Source: a virus
IMG/VR virus record: IMGVR_UViG_3300044997_001121
Span: 1-25,413 of that record
DNA: 25,413 bases
Direction: 5' to 3' (one strand)
This document shows, in pieces, positions 1,704 through 24,962 of this stretch (position 1 is the first letter of the stretch; the number at the start of each line of letters is the position of its first letter). The notes under the pieces are model-generated. The model had not been told where the DNA came from and searched no databases. It saw only the letters and a list, made by a program, of their open reading frames with translations. The translations under genes were made by a program, and so were the position numbers.

Positions 1704-1997
1704 ATGCTTACATTTAAGCAGTTTATTAGTGAATCGGCCGCCTGGCAGAGAAAAGAAGGCAAGAGCCCTACCGGAGGCCTTAATAAGAAAGGTATCATGA
1801 GCTACAGAAGAGAACACCCGGGTAGCAAATTATCTCTTGCTGTTACTACAAAACCTTCAAAATTAAAGCCAGGCAGCAAGGCAGCTAACAGAAGAAAGAG
1901 TTTTTGTGCTAGAATGGGTGGAGTTAAGGGTCCTATGAAGGATGAAAAGGGCCGTCCAACAAGAAAAGCACTTGCTCTTAGGAAGTGGAACTGTTAA
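1704..1997 (+). CDS. Candidate internal head protein with T4-like capsid-targeting N-terminus
   Basis: 97 residues, very basic. The first ten residues, MLTFKQFISE, align with the T4 internal-protein capsid-targeting sequence MKTYQEFIAE: Met1, Thr3, aromatic 4, Phe7, Ile8 and Glu10 agree. T4 protease gp21 cuts after Glu10. The rest has AWQRKEGK, GLNKKG, SYRREHPGSKL, KLKPGSKAANRRKSFCARM and ends ALRKWNC, a conserved small protein family of marine phages with no assigned function. Its high positive charge suits a protein packaged with DNA. Its TAA overlaps the ATG of the next gene by one base (TAATG), indicating coupled translation. The family assignment is from memory; packaging is inference. 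Confidence 0.75.
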   Translation: MLTFKQFISESAAWQRKEGKSPTGGLNKKGIMSYRREHPGSKLSLAVTTKPSKLKPGSKAANRRKSFCARMGGVKGPMKDEKGRPTRKALALRKWNC

Positions 1998-2416
1998 TGA
2001 AGACTTTTATGACATTCTTAGAAGAAAAAGCCACCGGATGCCCCTTGGCAACGCGTGATTTGGGTGTGAATTTAATGAACCGACAGAACGCCATAGATAA
2101 TTTTGGTTATGGCCCTATGAATCCTATGGAAGAATCTAAGGAATTTTGGGAAAAAAAGGCAAAAATATGGAATGTGTCTGTCGATTATGCAAAAACATCA
2201 AGATGTGGCAATTGTGCTGCATTTAATATATCAGATCAGATGCGCAAGTGTATAAAAAACGGACTCCAAAACGGTGAAAGCGCTAATGTAGGTGCTGAAG
2301 GTACTATTAATAAGGCTGATTTGGGATATTGTGTAGTTCTACACTTTAAATGTGCAGGGACTCGCACCTGTGACGCATGGCTAACCAACGGGCCACTAGA
2401 TAATAAGGACGTATGA
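1997..2416 (+). CDS. Cysteine-rich conserved phage protein with T4-like capsid-targeting N-terminus
   Basis: 139 residues from the ATG at 1997 (TAATG overlap); a GTG at 1985 would add four residues but overlaps the upstream gene further. It starts MKTFMTFLEE, again matching the T4 capsid-targeting decapeptide with Glu at position 10. The C-terminal half holds a conserved cysteine set: RCGNCAAF (C-x2-C), a lone Cys in RKCIKN, GYCVVLHFKCAG, and TRTCDAW. This arrangement is widespread in T4-like phages of bacterioplankton, where it is sometimes labelled high-potential-iron-sulfur-like; it probably binds a metal or an Fe-S cluster. The adjacent dps-like gene makes iron chemistry plausible. The TGA overlaps the next start (TGATG). 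Confidence 0.8.
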   Translation: MKTFMTFLEEKATGCPLATRDLGVNLMNRQNAIDNFGYGPMNPMEESKEFWEKKAKIWNVSVDYAKTSRCGNCAAFNISDQMRKCIKNGLQNGESANVGAEGTINKADLGYCVVLHFKCAGTRTCDAWLTNGPLDNKDV

Positions 2417-5246: not shown

Positions 5247-6257
5247 ATGACTGATAGGTCTAAAAAAATATCAGAGCTTACACCTCTTGTTTCAGCGGCA
5301 CCAGAGGATTTACTAGTAATAGTAGATAGTCCGTCAGGCGTCGCTGAAACAAAGAAGATAACAGTCGCTAATTTCTTTGGTAACGTAGCGTCTAATGCTC
5401 AGTTTAAGGCCTCGGTGTCTGTAAACGGTGCGGTAAACATTACAAACACTATCTTTGTTAACAATGTATCTTACTTAAACGCTAATGCAAATGTAAGAGG
5501 TGTGATCTCGGTTAACGGTTTACCCGTTATTAATTCATCAGGTTATTGGGTTGGCAATACTTCTGGGCTTAAAGGTGAAAAAGGCGATCAAGGCTTAGCT
5601 GGTAATAAGGGTGATACAGGTGCAGCAGGCAACAAAGGAGATAAAGGCGATAAAGGTGAAGTCGGCGCAACAGGTCTAACAGGCGCAACTGGTAATAAGG
5701 GTGATACAGGTAGCACTGGTGTAACTGGAGCTAAGGGCGACATAGGATCACAAGGGCCACAAGGACCCCAGGGCGTAGTCGGTGGTATATCATATTCTGT
5801 GACCGCTAATTCAGGTTTATATTACTTTTCTGGGCTCACTGGTAGTAATCCCACATTGTCCTTGATTAGAGGATTTACCTATTACTTTAATATTTCTGCA
5901 TCAGGTCATCCATTTTGGATTAAAACTGTACAAGAAACTGGCACGGGTAATTCTTATTCCACCGGTGTAACAAATAATGGTACAGATAATGGTACAGTTA
6001 TATTCACTGTGCCGTCAAATGCACCATCGACTCTATATTACAATTGCCAATATCATAGCTCAATGGCAGGTACCATTAATATAGATGATGTAGGACCACA
6101 AGGACCCGCAGGTAATAAAGGCGACAAAGGTAATAAGGGTGATACTTCTTTAGTGCCAGGGCCATATGATAACGACACAGCAGCTCAAGCAGCCGGGGTA
6201 AACGTAGGGGGCATGTACTATAACCCATCGGGAGTCGTTTACGTAAGACTTAATTAG
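5247..6257 (+). CDS. Tail/virion fibre with collagen-like repeats and a cupredoxin-like domain
   Basis: 336 residues, two bases after the previous gene. The N-terminus (KKISELTPL... DLLVIVDS... KKITVANF) is the usual phage fibre attachment type. Residues 107-180 and 283-299 are Gly-X-Y collagen-like repeats rich in GDKG and GNKG, expected to form a trimeric stalk. Between them (about 180-280) is a beta domain resembling plastocyanin-type cupredoxins: GHPFWIKT gives His221, and CQYHSSM gives Cys267, His270 and Met273, the C-x2-H-x2-M spacing seen in amicyanin. The C-terminus (GMYYNPSGVVYVRLN) is typical of short phage fibre tips. It probably acts in host attachment or surface decoration; actual copper binding is untested. 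Confidence 0.8.
   Translation: MTDRSKKISELTPLVSAAPEDLLVIVDSPSGVAETKKITVANFFGNVASNAQFKASVSVNGAVNITNTIFVNNVSYLNANANVRGVISVNGLPVINSSGYWVGNTSGLKGEKGDQGLAGNKGDTGAAGNKGDKGDKGEVGATGLTGATGNKGDTGSTGVTGAKGDIGSQGPQGPQGVVGGISYSVTANSGLYYFSGLTGSNPTLSLIRGFTYYFNISASGHPFWIKTVQETGTGNSYSTGVTNNGTDNGTVIFTVPSNAPSTLYYNCQYHSSMAGTINIDDVGPQGPAGNKGDKGNKGDTSLVPGPYDNDTAAQAAGVNVGGMYYNPSGVVYVRLN
5565..5786 (+). repeat. Collagen-like Gly-X-Y coding repeat
   Basis: About 24 consecutive Gly-X-Y triplets. At DNA level a 21-base unit at 5601-5621 recurs exactly at 5691-5711, showing recent internal duplication or gene conversion. A shorter Gly-X-Y run lies at 6093-6143. Confidence 0.8.
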
Positions 6258-8095: not shown

Positions 8096-8334
8096 TGGAA
8101 ACTTTCGACACCGGGGCACGAATAGCAGTGCTAGAAAACGAATTAAAAAATATTGCTTCTGATATTAAGGAAATTAAAGTGGAACAAAAAGAGCAGCATG
8201 ATGCTCTGATGAAACACTTTGTTAATATAGAAGAGCGATTAACAAACCTCGAAAAATGGAGGTGGATGGTTGTTGGTGGTGCTATGGTCCTTGGTTTCCT
8301 TCTTTCAAATATTAGTAAAGTAATGTCTAGTTGA
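8095..8334 (+). CDS. XhlA-like coiled-coil membrane protein
   Basis: 79 residues. Residues 8-55 form a coiled coil (RIAVLENELKNIASDIKEIK, then HFVNIEERLTNLEKWRW), followed by one C-terminal membrane segment (about 56-72, VVGGAMVLGFLL). This is the layout of XhlA/hemolysin-like proteins encoded beside holins, which are thought to anchor or tune the lysis machinery. It overlaps the holin stop by one base. The promoter for the replication genes begins inside its last codons. Confidence 0.7.
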   Translation: METFDTGARIAVLENELKNIASDIKEIKVEQKEQHDALMKHFVNIEERLTNLEKWRWMVVGGAMVLGFLLSNISKVMSS

Positions 8335-8360
8335 TTTTTATTTTCGCGCTCTACTATAAT
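8331..8360 (+). promoter_or_regulatory. Sigma70-type promoter ahead of the primase gene
   Basis: TTGATT (8331-8336), an 18-base spacer, and a perfect TATAAT (8355-8360). Transcription would start near 8367, about 20 bases before the primase ATG. It marks the change from late/lysis genes to DNA metabolism. The AGTTGATTT...ATTTTCG stretch recurs ahead of the DUF932 gene at 22972. Confidence 0.65.
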
Positions 8361-8387
8361 GTAGTGTACGGAAATAATAGGCAACAT

Positions 8388-9404
8388 ATGTTACTGACTG
8401 ATAAAAAATATATTTGTGTAATATCTAACAGGCTTGAGAGATTTACCCGCAAGTCTGATAAACTATACAGCTGCAGATGCCCTATCTGTGGTGACTCAAA
8501 GACAAATCGTACAAAAACGCGCGGCTTCTTCTATGAGAAGAAAGACCATATGCTATATTATTGCCACAATTGTGGTGCATCGATGCGTTTTGGAACATTT
8601 CTCAAGACATTTGATCCGGTAATGCATGCCGACTATGTAAATGAGACATTTCTTGAAAAAAATAATAAAACACCTGAACGTAAAGAGACTAAATTAGAGT
8701 TTGTACAGCCCGTCTTTGTAAAGACTGGGGTACTGGCTGGTCTTAAAAAGATCTCCTCGCTCGAGGTTAATCACCCTGCTAAACTTTACGTTCAGAAAAG
8801 AAAGATCCCTCCCGACCGGCACTACAAACTATTCTATGCACCGCGATTTAAGGAATTTGTTAATGGTCTTATACCTAATAAATTTGCTGATGTATCCCGG
8901 GACGAAGCAAGACTAATTTTACCTTTTCTAGACGAAGAAAAACGATGCTTCGGGTTTCAAGGCCGCGCAATTGGAAATTCAAGCATTCGTTATATAACAA
9001 TCATGCTTCGCGATGACAAGCCTAAGATTTTTGGACTTGATGCTTTAGACACGAGCAAGGAAGTTATAGTCGTTGAAGGACCCATTGATTCTCTGTTTCT
9101 CCCTAACGCTATTGCTATGGCTGGCTCGGATGCTAGTTTGGTGTGGCTACCGCAGGAAACCCATAAAAGAGTTACGTTTGCATATGATAACGAACCAAGA
9201 AATAAAGATATCGTTAAGAAGATGCAAGGTGCTGCTCACAAAGGGTTTAAGGTGGTAGTTTGGCCAGCTGAGCTGAATTCCAAAGATATAAATGATATGA
9301 TTCTTTCTGGATTAACGTCAGTTGAAATTAAAAAAATAATAGCTGAAAATAGCTATGAAGGGTTGGCAGCTAGGCTAGCAATTACGAACTGGAGCAAGTT
9401 ATGA
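8388..9404 (+). CDS. DNA primase, T4 gp61-like (zinc finger plus TOPRIM)
   Basis: 338 residues from ATG 8388 (preceded by AGG at 9 bases and by a promoter); an in-frame TTG at 8331 lies upstream of the predicted transcription start and is rejected. The N-terminal zinc-binding domain has CPIC (Cys31, Cys34) and CHNC (Cys59, Cys62). The TOPRIM catalytic part has EVIVVEGPIDSLFLPNA (Glu230, Asp234) and FAYDNE (Asp267). It makes RNA primers on the lagging strand, working with a gp41-type helicase not present in this window. Its TGA overlaps the thyX ATG (ATGA). Confidence 0.85.
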   Translation: MLLTDKKYICVISNRLERFTRKSDKLYSCRCPICGDSKTNRTKTRGFFYEKKDHMLYYCHNCGASMRFGTFLKTFDPVMHADYVNETFLEKNNKTPERKETKLEFVQPVFVKTGVLAGLKKISSLEVNHPAKLYVQKRKIPPDRHYKLFYAPRFKEFVNGLIPNKFADVSRDEARLILPFLDEEKRCFGFQGRAIGNSSIRYITIMLRDDKPKIFGLDALDTSKEVIVVEGPIDSLFLPNAIAMAGSDASLVWLPQETHKRVTFAYDNEPRNKDIVKKMQGAAHKGFKVVVWPAELNSKDINDMILSGLTSVEIKKIIAENSYEGLAARLAITNWSKL

Positions 9405-15228: not shown

Positions 15229-15502
15229 ACAGCACTTTAACGAAGAAGCCAATAAAAATTTTATTAAGTATGCGCTTTCGATTGCGGAAGTTAATATTAG
15301 CTTTATAAAATCTAATGGTGAGCTTCGTAATATGAAATGCACTTTAAAAGACGATCTTATTAAAGACTATAGTAAGAAAACTGATAGAGTAAAGACTCCT
15401 AGTAATGAAATACAACCAGTTTTTGACTTAGACAAGCAGGAATGGAGATCGTTTCGTTGGGATAGCATTAAACATTTTAATTTTACGTTAGGAAAACTAT
15501 AA
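15212..15502 (+). CDS. Small SH3-fold/WYL_2-like phage protein
   Basis: 96 residues from ATG 15212, with GGA 7 bases upstream; the same frame is open further upstream but covers the preceding small gene. The pattern 'S-N-G-E-L-R-N-M-K-C-T-L' followed by VFDLDKQEWRSFRWDSIKHF resembles the SH3-like phage family sometimes named WYL_2 or DUF2693. Such proteins are suspected to bind nucleic acid or a ligand, without a proven role. It ends with TAATG on the nucleotidyltransferase start. Confidence 0.65.
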   Translation: MNQKNEQHFNEEANKNFIKYALSIAEVNISFIKSNGELRNMKCTLKDDLIKDYSKKTDRVKTPSNEIQPVFDLDKQEWRSFRWDSIKHFNFTLGKL

Positions 15503-16095
15503 TGAGAGTAGGGTTTACATGTTCTACATTTGATCTGTTTCATGCAGGACATATCGATATGCTCCAACAAGCTAGGCGGGTTTGCGACTATCTTATAGTA
15601 GGGTTACAAACAGACCCTTCGATTGACCGATCTTTTAAGAGTAAACCTATTCAATCGATAGTTGAGAGACAGCTGCAGCTTAAAGCAACACAACTTATCG
15701 ATGAGATTTATGTGTATGAAACTGAAAAAGATCTAGAAGATCTTTTAAATATTTTACAAATAGATGTGCGCATTATAGGTGAAGAATATAAAAATGTACC
15801 TTTTACCGGCAAAAATATCTGCTTAGAAAGAGGCATTGAAGTGGTATATAATAGACGCCGCCACACTTTTAGCTCATCAGAGCTCCGTCAGCGGGTTATG
15901 GATGCGGAAAGCAAAAAGGTTGATACAGTTCATATTACACCGTATGGATTGACCATGGTAGATTGCGCAATAACGGGAGCCGCCGGAGTAGATACTATTG
16001 AGATTAGTGATTCTAAAGACCCTGCTCTTTTAGAGGGTTTGTACTCGTGGAAATTTAGTGGTTTAGATACAACTTTTACCACATCTAATACCTAG
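15502..16095 (+). CDS. Cytidylyltransferase-like nucleotidyltransferase with C-terminal extension
   Basis: 197 residues. The first 133 form a cytidylyltransferase of the TagD/HldE-C type: GFTCSTFDLFHAGH has the HxGH site (His14, His17), followed by DYLIVGLQTD, IDEIYVY, RIIGEEYK and a TFSSSELR end motif in place of the usual ISTT. It transfers a nucleotide from NTP to a sugar or polyol phosphate. With the heptose kinase and isomerase downstream, activation of heptose-1-phosphate is the favoured role; glycerol-3-phosphate (CDP-glycerol) is the alternative. Residues 134-197 form an extra segment (VDTVHITPYGLTMVDCAITG) not expected in the family and unrecognised. It is coupled to galE (no gap). 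Confidence 0.8.
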   Translation: MRVGFTCSTFDLFHAGHIDMLQQARRVCDYLIVGLQTDPSIDRSFKSKPIQSIVERQLQLKATQLIDEIYVYETEKDLEDLLNILQIDVRIIGEEYKNVPFTGKNICLERGIEVVYNRRRHTFSSSELRQRVMDAESKKVDTVHITPYGLTMVDCAITGAAGVDTIEISDSKDPALLEGLYSWKFSGLDTTFTTSNT

Positions 16096-17100
16096 ATGAG
16101 TGAAATTAATAATAAGTGGGTCGCTATCACTGGTAGCGCAGGATATATTGGATCCGTTCTAGCTAAACACTGCAAAGGGTGCGGATATAACGTCTTAGGT
16201 ATTGATATCGTTTACGGATCTGAAGGTTCTAACGTATATTATAACAAGCATGCGTATATTGATGTAGCAATGGGTGCATGTATTTCATCCTACGTTTTTA
16301 CTACCTTGATTCAATATTACGGTATTGATACCATCTTTCATCTAGCTGCATCCGCTGATGTTAAACAGAGTCAAGAAACCCCTATGAGGTTTTATGAGAA
16401 TAACGTAGGCAACACAGCAGCAATGCTTCAGAATTTGTCTTCTATTTCATGGAAAGGCAAAATAATATATTCTAGCACAGCTGCAGTATATGAAGAGAGT
16501 AATACTCCTGTAGCAGAAGAATCAGAAAAAAAGCCGCCCAATTACTATGGTGATTCAAAATTAAAGTCAGAAAAACTGTTTGACGTTATTTACGAGAGAC
16601 ACGGTATTTCAAGTACTGTTTTTAGATATTTTAACGTTGCAGGAGCAAGGGGCGATGTTGGAGACAGACCAGAAACAACACATATTATCCCTATTATGTG
16701 TAAGTCAGCTTTTACTGGTACTCCGTTTTTTTTATTTGGTAACGACTATGATACAAGAGATGGGACAGCTGTCAGGGACTATATTGACGTAAATGATGTG
16801 TGTAGAGCTCATTTTCACGCTAGTGATTTTTTAGATTTAAATCCAGGTGTGCATATCTTCAATCTAGGCACAAGTATTGGCACGTCGCTCAATGAGCTTA
16901 TTCATACTTTTGAAGACGTAAATAAAATAGATCTACAGTATATACTAAGTGGTAGAAGAGAGGGTGACCCCGGCTATCTAGTCGCTGACCCAAGCAAATT
17001 TATTAATGAAACCGGATTTTTTTATCAAAGCAGTTTAAATTCGATTATTAAGTCTAGTTGGGACTTTTATTGTTATAGGGAAGAAAAAAATGGCATTTGA
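16096..17100 (+). CDS. galE: NAD-dependent sugar epimerase, GalE-like
   Basis: 334 residues, normal GalE length. Extended SDR features: NAD site TGSAGYIGS (12-20), SST at 126-128, catalytic Tyr151-x3-Lys155 (YYGDSK), FRYFNVAGA, GTAVRDYIDVNDV and the C-terminal REGDPGYLVADPSK, a GalE signature. It most likely interconverts UDP-glucose and UDP-galactose (or the N-acetyl forms), giving a sugar donor for the next gene's product. A heptose-epimerase role is less likely because the GalE C-terminal motifs are intact. Starts directly after the upstream stop and overlaps the glycosyltransferase by 11 bases. Confidence 0.85.
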   Translation: MSEINNKWVAITGSAGYIGSVLAKHCKGCGYNVLGIDIVYGSEGSNVYYNKHAYIDVAMGACISSYVFTTLIQYYGIDTIFHLAASADVKQSQETPMRFYENNVGNTAAMLQNLSSISWKGKIIYSSTAAVYEESNTPVAEESEKKPPNYYGDSKLKSEKLFDVIYERHGISSTVFRYFNVAGARGDVGDRPETTHIIPIMCKSAFTGTPFFLFGNDYDTRDGTAVRDYIDVNDVCRAHFHASDFLDLNPGVHIFNLGTSIGTSLNELIHTFEDVNKIDLQYILSGRREGDPGYLVADPSKFINETGFFYQSSLNSIIKSSWDFYCYREEKNGI

Positions 17101-18085
17101 AGAGAATGAAATTTCTGCTAAGGCTCAAGGCGGCACAGAGATGATGAAGCGTGGGCTGGCTGAGAGACTTCCGCCAGGCCTGGCAGATGATTTCCAAATT
17201 ATTTGTTCTAGAGTCAGAGATCTTGAAGAGGATAAGATTCGAATTTATTGGCTGCACGATTTACCAGATGACCCGGAGACTAGCCATCTTAGGGACCAAA
17301 CAAGCAGGGACCGCTTTCATAAGTTAGTTTTTTGTGGTCAATGGCAGTATTATCGGTATCAACATATGCTTGGTCTTCCTTATGATGACGACGCAATCAT
17401 TATTGAGACTGCTATTGATCCGATTCCTTTTAAGGAAAAGAGCAAAGATGAAGTAAGGCTTATTTACACATCCACCCCTCAGCGTGGATTGGCGTTGTTG
17501 GTGCCGGTGTTTGAAAAGTTAGCTGAAAAGTATGATAATATTTACCTAGATGTCTTCTCAAGCTTTAAGATCTATGGTTGGGAAGATGCTGATAAGCAAT
17601 TTGAGCCTTTGTATGAGAGATGCCGCAACCATCCTCGTATTAATTACCATTCTTATGCTTCAAACGATGTAGTAAGAGAGGCTTTACAGAATGCACATAT
17701 TTTTGCATATCCATCTATTTGGTTTGAATGCAATAGCAGATCTCTTATTGAGGCTATGTCTGCCGGCTGTTTGTGTATTCACCCAAACAAAGGGGGATTA
17801 ATAGACACGGCTGGTGGTCTAACATTCATGTATCAGGGCACAGAAGATATTAACAAACATGCTGGTATTTTTTATCATGCACTAGATAATACGATTTCTA
17901 CAGTTAATACTAAAGAATTACAGATATACCAACAATTTGTAAAGACATATGCAGATACAAGATTTAACTGGCAAAAGATTTCAGATCAATGGACCGACCT
18001 GCTTACAGGTATGAAGGAGCGTTATTCAACGGTTGAAAGCAGAAAAATGACTAAAGGTCCGATGTTTATATATAACACGTTATGA
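17090..18085 (+). CDS. Glycosyltransferase, GT4-like (GT-B)
   Basis: 331 residues. The N-terminal part has the AQGGTE glycine loop (12-17) and IYWLHDLPDD. The donor-binding C-terminal half has RLIYTSTPQRGL, YASNDVV, ALQNAHIFAYPS and the E-x7-E site (Glu213, Glu221) in ECNSRSLIEAMSAG. It transfers a sugar from a nucleotide donor to an acceptor that cannot be named from sequence; LPS, a virion protein or modified DNA are options. It has no signal peptide. The start lies within the galE end and the stop overlaps the kinase ATG (ATGA). Confidence 0.83.
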   Translation: MAFEENEISAKAQGGTEMMKRGLAERLPPGLADDFQIICSRVRDLEEDKIRIYWLHDLPDDPETSHLRDQTSRDRFHKLVFCGQWQYYRYQHMLGLPYDDDAIIIETAIDPIPFKEKSKDEVRLIYTSTPQRGLALLVPVFEKLAEKYDNIYLDVFSSFKIYGWEDADKQFEPLYERCRNHPRINYHSYASNDVVREALQNAHIFAYPSIWFECNSRSLIEAMSAGCLCIHPNKGGLIDTAGGLTFMYQGTEDINKHAGIFYHALDNTISTVNTKELQIYQQFVKTYADTRFNWQKISDQWTDLLTGMKERYSTVESRKMTKGPMFIYNTL

Positions 18086-19062
18086 TCCTAGTAAAGACTC
18101 CACTTAGGGTTAGTTTTTTTGGAGGCGGTAGTGATATCGCCTCATTTTATTCAAGACATAACGGAATCTGCTTATCTACTACAATTGACAAGTACATGTA
18201 TATTACTGCATGTAAGACATCATTGAGCGGTATAAAAGCAGTGTACAATGACATTGAGGTAGTTGAGAATATCAATGAGTTAAAGCACGACAGAATAAGA
18301 AATATTCTTCTTGCCCACAATATTAGTAAAAATATTGAAATTGCTTCATTTTCTGAAATTCCTACTAAGGGCACAGGTCTCGGCTCATCATCTTCTTTTA
18401 CTGTAGGGCTTTTGAACGCGATTTACAAATACAAGAAATATAAGTCATTTAATAAATTTGATCTTGCTGAAGATGCATGTTCGATTGAAATTGATGCGTG
18501 TGGGGAACCTATTGGCAAACAAGATCAATATGCAGCGGCTTTTGGCGGTCTTAACCAATATACGTTTTATTCTGATCATTCTGTTAAAGTAACCCCGGTT
18601 CATACATCCAGCAACACTGTTGGTAAACTTAATAATAATTTATTGCTTTTTTTTACTGGCATTAGTCGTAACGCTTCAAGTATTCTACAAGAGCAATCTA
18701 GAAATAATAATCACGACAATTTATTATTACTTGCAGACATGGCAAAAACCGCATATAAAAAGATCGTAAAAGATAAATTAGACGATTTTGGGGATATGCT
18801 GGATATTGCATGGAAACTTAAAAAGAGTCTTGCATCTAGTATAAGTAATAATGTAATAGATGGTTATTATGAGGAATTGAAGAAAGCTGGAGCCATGGGC
18901 GGCAAGCTCCTAGGTGCCGGTGGTGGGGGATACTTTTTAGTCTATGTGCCTGGTGATGTTTATAAGTCAAAAGTAATTGACAAAGCGAAAAAGCTAGGAT
19001 TAAAGTATTTTGACTTTAAATTTGAATATGAAGGTAGTAGAGTAATTTATGAAAATAGATAA
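18082..19062 (+). CDS. hddA: GHMP kinase, D-glycero-D-manno-heptose-7-phosphate kinase type
   Basis: 326 residues. GHMP motifs: PLRVSFFGGGSD (7-18), phosphate loop GTGLGSSSS (97-105), GEPIGKQDQYAAAFGGLN (141-158) and GAGGGGYFLVY near 282. The PLRVSFFGGGTD-type start and the GKQDQYAAAFGG segment are typical of the HddA branch, which phosphorylates heptose-7-phosphate at C1. It works with the SIS isomerase next door. The 1,7-bisphosphate phosphatase (GmhB, HAD family) that should follow is not in this window and may be host-supplied. It overlaps the isomerase gene by 14 bases. Confidence 0.85.
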   Translation: MILVKTPLRVSFFGGGSDIASFYSRHNGICLSTTIDKYMYITACKTSLSGIKAVYNDIEVVENINELKHDRIRNILLAHNISKNIEIASFSEIPTKGTGLGSSSSFTVGLLNAIYKYKKYKSFNKFDLAEDACSIEIDACGEPIGKQDQYAAAFGGLNQYTFYSDHSVKVTPVHTSSNTVGKLNNNLLLFFTGISRNASSILQEQSRNNNHDNLLLLADMAKTAYKKIVKDKLDDFGDMLDIAWKLKKSLASSISNNVIDGYYEELKKAGAMGGKLLGAGGGGYFLVYVPGDVYKSKVIDKAKKLGLKYFDFKFEYEGSRVIYENR

Positions 19063-19636
19063 TTATATACAAACATATACTGATTCACTGAAAAAAGGTA
19101 TAGAGAGTATAGACCCTGTCTTAGTAGATAAAGCTATTAATTTTTTAGTTAATACTACACTGCACAGGGGGACGATATTTGTTTGTGGAAACGGAGGTTC
19201 AGCTGCCATAAGTGAACATTTTCTTTGTGACCATACGAAAGGGATATATGCAGATACACGTTTTCTTCCTCGAGTTATATCCCTTCCATCAAGTATTTCT
19301 CTAACTACTGCCATAGCCAATGATATAGCATTTGAACACATTTTCAGCTATCAGCTGGACATGTTTTCTCAGACGGGGGATACATTAGTAGCTATTTCCT
19401 CAAGTGGCAATTCACCAAACATTATTAGAGTACTTAGAGCAGCAAAAAACAGCGGCGTTAATACAATTGCACTGGTTGGATTTGATGGTGGAGAAGCACT
19501 AGATATTGCTGATGTGGTACTTCATGTACCGATATCAAATTACGGTATTGTAGAAGATGCACATCAGGCGCTGATGCATATCATGGCGCAATTTATTAGA
19601 TTGACGTTTAAAACTAAAGAAAATATTAAACTTTAA
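19049..19636 (+). CDS. gmhA: SIS-domain sugar-phosphate isomerase, GmhA-like
   Basis: 195 residues, the usual length for a phosphoheptose isomerase. FVCGNGGSAA (44-53) and ISSSGNSPN (116-124) bind the phosphate; VEDAHQALMH (168-177) supplies the C-terminal Glu/His. The region after the first motif reads CDHTKG (60-65), as in a subgroup linked to surface-sugar loci, in place of the AEL segment of E. coli GmhA; Asp61 would stand near the usual catalytic Glu. It should convert sedoheptulose-7-phosphate to glycero-manno-heptose-7-phosphate, the substrate of the kinase before it. Substrate is likely but not certain for this subgroup. Confidence 0.83.
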   Translation: MKIDNYIQTYTDSLKKGIESIDPVLVDKAINFLVNTTLHRGTIFVCGNGGSAAISEHFLCDHTKGIYADTRFLPRVISLPSSISLTTAIANDIAFEHIFSYQLDMFSQTGDTLVAISSSGNSPNIIRVLRAAKNSGVNTIALVGFDGGEALDIADVVLHVPISNYGIVEDAHQALMHIMAQFIRLTFKTKENIKL

Positions 19637-19637
19637 A

Positions 19638-20492
19638 ATGATCTTGCTTGACCTTAATCAGGTCTGTATTGCTAATTTAGTAGCGCAGATTGGAAACCAT
19701 ACAAATATAGAAGTAGACGAGGACCTTTTTAGACACATGGTTCTTAATACTATTCGATCATTAAAAACAAAATTCTCACTTGAGTTCGGCGAACTTATTA
19801 TATGTTGCGATGATAGGAAGGTGTGGAGAAAAGAAGTGTTTCCTTACTATAAAGCAAATAGAAAAAAATTAAGAGAAGAATCTGAACTTGATTGGAATAA
19901 AATATTTAACCTACTTAATAAAATTAAGTTAGAACTCAAAGAGTTTTTTCCTTATAGAGTAATTCAGGTTAAAGGTGCTGAAGCTGATGATGTAATTGGC
20001 ACTTTAGTTATAAAACACGGACAAATGCTAAATACCGGAGAGCCAATACTTATTCTCTCAGGTGATAAGGATTTTGTGCAATTACAAATTTTCGGCAATG
20101 TTAGTCAATACGACCCAATACGTAAAAAAGCTATCAAGAATAGTAACCCAGTGAATTTTACAAGAGAGCTTATTATTAAAGGTGATAGAGGTGACGGTAT
20201 ACCTAATATCTTTTCGCCCGATGATAGCTTTGTAAACAATATTCGCCAAAAACCTGCTAGATTAGACAGGTTTGAAGGTATGAATAATCCTAGAAAAGAG
20301 CTTACCGGTGAGCTTCTTAAAAATTGGGTTCGTAATGAACAGCTTATAGATCTTACTTTTATCCCAGATAATATTCAGACTGAAGTTATAAATGAATATG
20401 AAAAGGAAAGTAACAAGTCTAAAAATAAAATTTTTAACTTTCTTGTTGAAAAGAAGCTTAAAATTCAACTCGAACATATCAATGAGTTTTAA
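19638..20492 (+). CDS. rnh: T4 RNase H-like 5'-3' nuclease (FEN family)
   Basis: 284 residues. Acidic metal-site residues of the FEN/5'-exonuclease fold are present: Asp5 (LLDLNQ), Asp59 region (CCDDRKVWR), FPYYKANRKK, AEADDVIG (Glu115, Asp117, Asp118), SGDKDFVQL (Asp143, Asp145) and GDRGDGIPN (Asp183, Asp186) before the helix-hairpin-helix. It removes RNA primers and adjacent DNA from the lagging strand, matching the primase at 8388. It follows the isomerase after one base, so replication and sugar genes share a message. Its Arg codons are mostly AGA/AGG. Confidence 0.88.
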   Translation: MILLDLNQVCIANLVAQIGNHTNIEVDEDLFRHMVLNTIRSLKTKFSLEFGELIICCDDRKVWRKEVFPYYKANRKKLREESELDWNKIFNLLNKIKLELKEFFPYRVIQVKGAEADDVIGTLVIKHGQMLNTGEPILILSGDKDFVQLQIFGNVSQYDPIRKKAIKNSNPVNFTRELIIKGDRGDGIPNIFSPDDSFVNNIRQKPARLDRFEGMNNPRKELTGELLKNWVRNEQLIDLTFIPDNIQTEVINEYEKESNKSKNKIFNFLVEKKLKIQLEHINEF

Positions 20493-22696: not shown

Positions 22697-22771
22697 GCGG
22701 GTATGGTGTAGTGGCTGCGCCCTGGTCTTCCAAGCCAGAGAGGATGGGTTCGATTCCCACTATCCGCTCCA
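22697..22771 (+). tRNA. tRNA-Gly (anticodon UCC)
   Basis: 75 bases with encoded CCA (22769-22771). The acceptor stem pairs GCGGGTA with TATCCGC (one G-U). The anticodon stem CTGGT/GCCAG encloses loop CTTCCAA with anticodon TCC at 22729-22731. The T loop is TTCGATT; its stem has one A-C mismatch. It reads GGA (and GGG) glycine codons. It begins at the base after a stop codon. Confidence 0.92.
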
Positions 22772-24254: not shown

Positions 24255-24641
24255 ATGGCATATTCCGATAAAGTAATTGATCACTACGAAAATCCTAGAA
24301 ACGTTGGATCGTTTGACAAAAGCGACAGTACTGTAGGTACAGGTATGGTTGGTGCACCTGCCTGCGGGGATGTAATGAAACTACAAATAAAAGTCAACGA
24401 TCAAGGCATTATTGAAGATGCAAAATTCAAGACCTACGGCTGCGGTAGCGCTATTGCCAGTTCAAGTCTCGTAACCGAATGGATTAAAGGTAAAACACTT
24501 GATGAAGCCGTCAGCATAAAGAATACTCACATTGCGGAAGAGTTATCATTGCCACCTGTAAAAATACATTGCAGTATTCTTGCTGAAGATGCAATTAAGG
24601 CAGCAGTCAAAGACTATCAATTAAAATGTCTTTGTAGTTAG
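24255..24641 (+). CDS. iscU: Iron-sulfur cluster scaffold IscU
   Basis: 128 residues, the same length as E. coli IscU and very similar to it by recall. All working residues are present: Cys37 and Asp39 (GAPACGD), Cys63 (YGCGSA), His105 and Cys106 (KIHCS), and the HscA-binding LPPVK (99-103). IscU receives sulfur from IscS and iron, assembles 2Fe-2S or 4Fe-4S clusters and passes them on with HscA/HscB. Those partners are absent here and would come from the host. The C-terminus KCLCS adds two unusual cysteines. No ribosome site is seen; the promoter predicts a leaderless message. The closeness to gamma/beta-proteobacterial IscU suggests acquisition from a bacterium with an ISC system. Confidence 0.93.
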   Translation: MAYSDKVIDHYENPRNVGSFDKSDSTVGTGMVGAPACGDVMKLQIKVNDQGIIEDAKFKTYGCGSAIASSSLVTEWIKGKTLDEAVSIKNTHIAEELSLPPVKIHCSILAEDAIKAAVKDYQLKCLCS

Positions 24642-24650
24642 GAACTAAAT

Positions 24651-24962
24651 ATGTTAACAATAACCCAAGATGCACAGAAAAAAATTAAAGAAATTTTACT
24701 TGATGAACCCACCGCAAGATATGTAAGGGCATTTATTTCTGGTGGTGGATGCGCAGGGTTTAATTATGGATTTACCATTGAAGATGAAAAGAATGAAGAT
24801 GATTTTATTGTTAATGAATTACTAGTTGATTCAATAAGTATGCAATATTTTGATGGAGCAACTATAGATTACAAAACTGATAAACTACAAGGCTCACAAT
24901 TTGTTATTTTAAATCCAAATGCAAAAACAACATGCGGGTGTGGCAGTAGTTTTTCAGTTTAA
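24651..24962 (+). CDS. erpA: A-type iron-sulfur carrier, ErpA/IscA family
   Basis: 103 residues, 9 bases after iscU, with AGGA 7-8 bases before the ATG. Cluster ligands Cys34 ([11 protein letters not shown]), Cys95 and Cys97 (TTCGCGSSF) are intact. The segments [14 protein letters not shown] and [16 protein letters not shown] point to the ErpA branch more than IscA. It takes clusters from IscU and delivers them to target enzymes. Pairing with iscU in one unit gives the phage both a scaffold and a carrier. It is possible that the true orthologue is IscA; a tree would decide. Confidence 0.88.

Follow-up and report, generated by a model that had tools for sequence, protein, structure and literature searches.

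Two neighbouring phage proteins with a T4-type capsid-targeting decapeptide: predicted internal head proteins of a T4-superfamily phage

Does the ten-residue sequence that opens two adjacent proteins of an environmental phage address them to the head interior? In T4, the capsid-targeting sequence (CTS) brings a protein to the prohead core, gp21 removes the CTS, and the mature protein is injected (PMC9026906, PMC12373910). Residues 4 and 7 of the CTS target, residues 8 and 10 govern processing, and gp21 cuts after L/I-x-E (PMC9026906). The window, i.e., the whole stretch of viral DNA that was analysed (25,413 bases), is devoid of head genes and has the following features (all on the + strand).

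218–225, T4-type late promoter −10 element, TATAAATA, 48 nt 5′ of the ORF 274 ATG
274–1701, ORF 274, first gene of the operon, 475 aa, pI 9.7, untagged
1704–1997, ORF 1704, DUF6321 protein, 97 aa, pI 11.2, predicted internal head protein
1704–1733, capsid-targeting decapeptide MLTFKQFISE, N-terminus of ORF 1704, predicted cut E10/S11
1997–2416, ORF 1997, cysteine-rich, 139 aa from the ATG at 1997, predicted internal head protein
1997–2026, capsid-targeting decapeptide MKTFMTFLEE, N-terminus of ORF 1997, predicted cut E10/K11
8331–9404, T4 gp61-like DNA primase, T4 superfamily marker that fixes the synteny
19638–20492, T4 rnh-like nuclease, T4 superfamily marker

The two decapeptides and their operon

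The initial annotation had read the starts of these neighbouring ORFs as T4-type CTSs. Both decapeptides were present in frame at exactly 1704 and 1997, and both were aligned without gaps to MKTYQEFIAE of T4 IPII/IPIII (sequence taken from the T4 record), sharing with it M1, T3, an aromatic residue 4, F7, I/L8, and E10. M1, T3, F7, and E10 are identical to T4 in both, as are I8 in ORF 1704 and K2 in ORF 1997; F4 and L8 are conservative changes. Each decapeptide lies at the extreme N-terminus, is about 10 residues long, and ends in E. The targeting residues are F4 and F7 in both ORFs, and the processing residues are I8/E10 in ORF 1704 and L8/E10 in ORF 1997. The descriptions of the first protein as basic (pI 11.2) and of the second as cysteine-rich (7 Cys in 139 aa) also held. 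If the GTG at 1985 were used as an alternative start, MELL would be added to ORF 1997.

The ORF 274 stop lies 2 bases before the ORF 1704 start, and the ORF 1997 start overlaps the ORF 1704 stop; the three genes are therefore taken as a single packed operon. When both strands were scanned, TATAAATA at 218–225 was the sole exact T4-type late promoter match in the window, and in relatives a T4-type late promoter element was also found 5′ of the same operon. CTAAATA was located upstream of 17% of tagged ORFs vs 2.2% of random positions. An untagged Ferritin/Dps-like protein (2413–2856; PF00210, E = 4.7e-21) follows ORF 1997 directly in the same operon.

The seven cysteines of ORF 1997 are invariant among 11 homologs. 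All seven T4-type orthologs (L082–L085, L087–L089) carry the tag or a close variant, and it is missing from the distant homologs (L090–L093). Relatives are annotated as "high potential iron-sulfur protein"; this identity (HiPIP, PF01355) found no support for ORF 1997, for which there was no Pfam match, no PDB match, and a poor structure model (pLDDT 50). Its cysteines allow a guess at a possible Fe-S or zinc/metal protein. A small tagged protein unrelated to ORF 1997 (L167) had a weak HIPIP match just under the curated cut-off.

Several other window genes were recorded. A NifU/IscU-like Fe-S scaffold (24255–24641, phrog_8429) is followed by a small protein resembling an A-type Fe-S carrier (24651–24962); the pair might be a phage Fe-S assembly pair serving cysteine-rich cargo. 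A row of heptose-pathway-like sugar-nucleotide genes (15502–19636) comprises a glycosyltransferase (phrog_2170) and, by resemblance, a nucleotidyltransferase, an epimerase, a GHMP-type kinase, and an SIS-type isomerase. Gly-x-x collagen-like repeats (GEKGDQGLAGNKGDTG...) at 5247–6257 belong to a probable virion or fibre protein, and a single tRNA gene was found at 22697–22768 (Rfam RF00005, 47.7 bits).

The tag in other viral sequences

With only five to six specified positions, and with helix predicted at low confidence for residues 4–13, the shared N-terminus could be a common generic helical start or a chance convergence that has no targeting role. The motif search of phage proteins proposed in the initial annotation bears on this. 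In 11 T4-superfamily genomes or fragments, M-x-[ST]-[FY]-x-x-F-[IL]-x-E was found at 14 of the 5,556 candidate ORF starts, a frequency that is biased because some genomes were picked via relatives of the two window genes, the permuted controls sharing the same sequences. Among 11,258 column-permuted motifs run on these sequences, the mean was 0.04 and the maximum 6, the permuted motifs thus being about 400 times rarer than the real one; those scoring 6 were near-versions of the true motif. A chance origin of the tag motif is excluded.

As a positive control, T4 was scanned in six frames with a relaxed motif, and only IPII, IPIII, and gp61.1 were matched. T4 gp61.1 (AF158101 18966–19130, L097; 54 aa) opens with MKTFKEFIKE, by sequence a perfect CTS. 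No description of gp61.1 as an internal protein was found, and it may be an unrecognised one.

Viral contigs were also scanned with a DNA pattern encoding M-K-T-[FY]-x-x-F-[ILMF]-x-E and with a decoy made of the same letters in another order. Among the matches listed, 122 of 129 tag matches opened an ORF of 40 aa or more vs 15 of 80 decoy matches (p = 4e-31), and several of these 15 fit the tag too. A generic start does not account for the rarity of the permuted motifs or for a decoy that is seldom N-terminal; the residue after the tag, the T4-type association, and the virion detection of tagged proteins described below also stand against it, and we regard it as hardly credible.

The same tag is borne by unrelated bodies: among the matches listed, the 123 tagged ORFs with 50 aa or more formed 76 clusters. 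Pfam names part of this cargo (adenylate kinase, ART-PolyVal, DUF3990, HD domains, cytidylyltransferase-like, GNAT, HNH, DUF6267, HIPIP, and 2OG oxygenase). For a signal of a known kind, the cargo range is wider than described in the literature covered (open-access papers). On the minus strand of L234 (6505–9422), four adjacent, mutually unrelated ORFs each start with MKTFKQFI[TSL]E and form an operon of tagged cargo.

Tagged loci are associated with T4-type genes. T4-core genes were present at 81 of 120 tag loci vs 18 of 85 decoy loci (p = 3e-11, among the matches listed). This per-locus comparison took the place of one counting S77/gp23 per contig (8 of 25 long tagged contigs vs 4 of 25 decoy contigs), which is a weak test, the contigs being fragments. 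Homologs of gp20, gp21, gp22, and gp23 are present in four window relatives (G003, G008, G019, and G031), and the S77 prohead protease scored above the cut-off in seven relatives, including the near relative G019, where it accompanies gp20–gp23. G003 has gp21 and gp22 as the immediate neighbours of a tagged ORF, one on each side. Of the long relatives, G015 is the nearest; it lacks S77 and these head genes, since its contig breaks off inside the gp18...gp23 region, and the absence of S77 was accordingly rejected as counter-evidence. Several, not all, of the long tagged contigs without S77 have T4 gp17 or gp41 homologs, and in some long tagged contigs no clear T4-type gene was found. Other phage groups may use the tag, because gp17/gp41 homologs are missing from some of the S77-less tagged contigs.

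The residue after E10, which lies outside the search pattern, was Ala in 46 and Ser in 19 of the tagged proteins (65 of 123, 53%) among the matches listed, compared with a background of 7% and 7.5% (about 15%) further on (p = 3e-23); with one member per cluster, p was 3e-13. Ala/Ser at this P1′ position would be expected for cleavage by a T4-type prohead protease. ORF 1997 has Lys at P1′, an uncommon residue there (about 4% of tagged proteins among the matches listed). In the window's relatives, gp23 propeptides end in FLTE/S, NLFE/A, FLSE/S, and SLME/V, and that of T4 ends in FLTE/A; the first three thus have L-x-E before S/A, as T4 does. Because these ends resemble each other, the head proteases of the window's group probably share T4 specificity, as far as can be judged from the alignment.

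Virion proteomes and DUF6321 proteins

Published virion mass spectrometry (MS) of three T4-like cyanophages was used: S-SCSM1 (PMC9602691, flagged in the GenBank record), S-CREM2 (PMC10665884, Table 3), and S-SZBM1 (PMC9146016, Table 1). The relaxed motif for this comparison was fixed before the S-CREM2 proteome was read. Over the three phages, 5 of 8 tagged CDSs were detected in virions vs 125 of 710 others (18%; p = 0.006). In S-CREM2, 4 of 5 were detected, namely the SAM hydrolase (MKDFDSFLEE), ORF13 (MKDLHSFLTE), ORF136 (MQTFSMFFSE), and NMNAT (MKNFSSFLTE/A); gp92, a weak motif match (MLTYTVILED), was undetected. One of the two in S-SCSM1 was detected (NMNAT, MKSFLQFLKE/A, and not ORF30), and 0 of 1 in S-SZBM1. 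Two proteins that do not fit the motif were detected as well, namely the S-CREM2 kinase (GTG start, VKRFDAFLTE) and the S-SZBM1 NMNAT (9-mer MRFRQFIIE/A). An intermediate motif, widened after S-CREM2, gave 6 of 8 (p = 0.0006), the earlier relaxed motif being retained as the test. With a stricter motif the numbers were too small for testing (one detected in S-CREM2, 1 of 2 in S-SCSM1, 0 of 1 in S-SZBM1).

Members of one tagged family (about 106 aa, SVNISGDFNGNLY...), encoded beside terminase genes, went undetected in the S-SCSM1 and S-SZBM1 virion proteomes; they are either too small or scarce, or else unpackaged. They are the following.

L383 4270–4590, S-SCSM1 ORF30
L401 22311–22628, S-SZBM1 ORF191

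A Cas9-like protein (L394 7704–10313, minus strand) was also detected in S-CREM2 virions; close to its N-terminus it has LRFASFMAE/A, which resembles a tag that is internal or has a misplaced start.

The NMNAT/cytidylyltransferase proteins (S-SCSM1 ORF91, S-CREM2 ORF154, S-SZBM1 ORF140) resemble the window proteins in their N-terminal tag, and their presence in virions was detected by experiment; as cargo they differ from the window proteins. In the passages covered of the three cyanophage papers, no tag is described for NMNAT. The authors of the S-CREM2 proteome noted that strongly expressed proteins may co-purify with virions (PMC10665884). A short way 5′ of gp61, nrdA, and nrdB, S-SCSM1 and S-CREM2 have several of the genes for the virion proteins named above, and the window has its tagged genes at the corresponding place; the order virion-protein cluster, gp61, nrdA, nrdB is common to all three.

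These proteomes are of whole virions, in which head and tail were unseparated, and the tag might accordingly address proteins to another virion part (tail or neck) or to a membrane-bound assembly site. In T4, this sequence sends proteins into the head (PMC9026906), the predicted cut fits a protease acting inside the prohead, and the tagged gene of G003 lies within a head gene cluster. An address outside the head interior is thus considered very unlikely.

The homologs of ORF 1704 provided a comparison in which proteins were picked for their body, whether tagged or untagged. ORF 1704 belongs to DUF6321 as a full-length member (PF19846; E = 3.4e-22, 79.3 bits vs gathering 28.5, profile 1–72 of 72). 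Its T4-type homologs mostly have E-final propeptides of 9–13 residues followed by SAAW, TAAW, or AAW, and untagged homologs start with M-A-K-TAAW, the point where the tagged ones would be cut. T4-core genes were found at 9 of 15 tagged and 3 of 19 untagged DUF6321 loci (p = 0.01; tagged and untagged sorted by eye). Unlike ORF 1704, podoviral members are untagged, and the S-SCSM1 member forms the C-terminal end of a larger virion protein: ORF29, detected by MS (PMC9602691), combines the ORF 274 region and a C-terminal DUF6321 in one chain. ORF 274 also matches S-CREM2 ORF160, another virion protein by MS (PMC10665884).

Gene positions of DUF6321 bear on a further reading, according to which the tag does serve T4-type head packing, but the proteins work only within the prohead (as assembly core or in DNA condensation) and are uninjected. 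In the T7-like podoviruses P-SCSP2 and HTVC168P, untagged DUF6321 genes lie between the scaffold and major capsid genes, and in cyanophage S-CREM1 a tagged one (MKTYNDFITE/V) lies between gp16 and gp17; such positions, the strongly basic ORF 1704 (pI 11.2), and a reported effect of T4 IPIII on head assembly too (PMC9026906) are in its favour. T4 IPI, IPII, and IPIII are nevertheless described as injected, each blocking a type IV restriction enzyme (PMC12373910), and the tag is also found on enzymes for which a part in assembly is not apparent (NMNAT, SAM hydrolase, ADP-ribosyltransferase, and adenylate kinase types). A role confined to the prohead is considered rather unlikely.

Head loading and its wider meaning

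The reading preferred here, with a probability of about 0.88, is that ORF 1704 and ORF 1997 belong to the internal head proteins of a T4-superfamily phage, loaded by the CTS and trimmed by a gp21-type protease. The CTS assignment of the initial annotation was supported by five independent lines, i.e., modular occurrence, Ala/Ser at P1′, T4-type association, the starts of untagged DUF6321 proteins, and published virion MS. Predicted packaging of the two proteins is well supported by homology, and the subsequent course (scaffold docking, cleavage, retention, and injection) is proposed as follows. Late in infection, both would be made from the tightly packed operon behind the T4-type late promoter. 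The propeptide M-x-T-F-x-x-F-I/L-x-E would dock its cargo to the prohead scaffolding core via F4 and F7 (targeting by these positions was shown for T4 IPIII), and the shell would close around the docked proteins. A gp21-type prohead protease would then cut after E10, giving N-termini SAAWQRKEGK... (ORF 1704) and KATGCPLATR... (ORF 1997), and the mature proteins would remain amid the packaged DNA and probably be ejected with it.

Known systems resemble this scheme to different degrees. T4 IPII/IPIII share with it, besides the decapeptide, unrelated bodies behind one tag, and T4-type late genes and a head module are present in the window's relatives; the window bodies are unrelated to IPI–III, however, and belong to an environmental T4-superfamily phage known from sequence and not to a coliphage. 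T4 Alt, a virion ADP-ribosyltransferase, is a packaged enzyme that also has a short propeptide with a final E (MELITELFDE), and ADP-ribosyltransferase-like proteins recur in the tagged cargo (ART-PolyVal); its propeptide sequence is not of the IP type, and neither ORF 1704 nor ORF 1997 is an ADP-ribosyltransferase. In the giant phages phiKZ/SPN3US, N-terminal propeptides are cut after Glu by a gp21-related protease and cargo is ejected, whereas several of the propeptides are longer than 100 residues and cleavage in phiKZ follows the motif S/A-x-E (PMC5694885, PMC9026906).

CTS-tagged internal proteins are known, with ORF 1704 and ORF 1997 as new members, and a T4 review already suggests that T4-like phages can package various proteins by means of the CTS. 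The breadth beyond T-even phages and the connection with unexplained enzymes of cyanophage virions seem new; no open-access paper on a CTS in cyanophages or on this connection was found. One exchangeable tag would load many unrelated cargoes in T4-like phages of aquatic bacteria. We consider it fairly probable that a single ten-residue address controls head loading across much of the aquatic T4 superfamily and that its carriers, to which gp61.1 may belong, are a large, mostly unread pre-packed set delivered upon infection. This set may include NMNAT, SAM hydrolase (possibly anti-restriction), kinases, ADP-ribosyltransferases, and cysteine-rich proteins such as ORF 1997.

Cyanophage virion MS has repeatedly yielded unexplained enzymes (NMNAT, SAM hydrolase, kinase). 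The tag is a simple sequence rule that would explain several such finds and predicts many further proteins, among them ORF 1704 and ORF 1997, that marine and freshwater T4-like phages may bring into their hosts. Since the tagged proteins of T4 are injected counter-defence proteins, tagged genes would be good first-strike candidates for host takeover or anti-defence.
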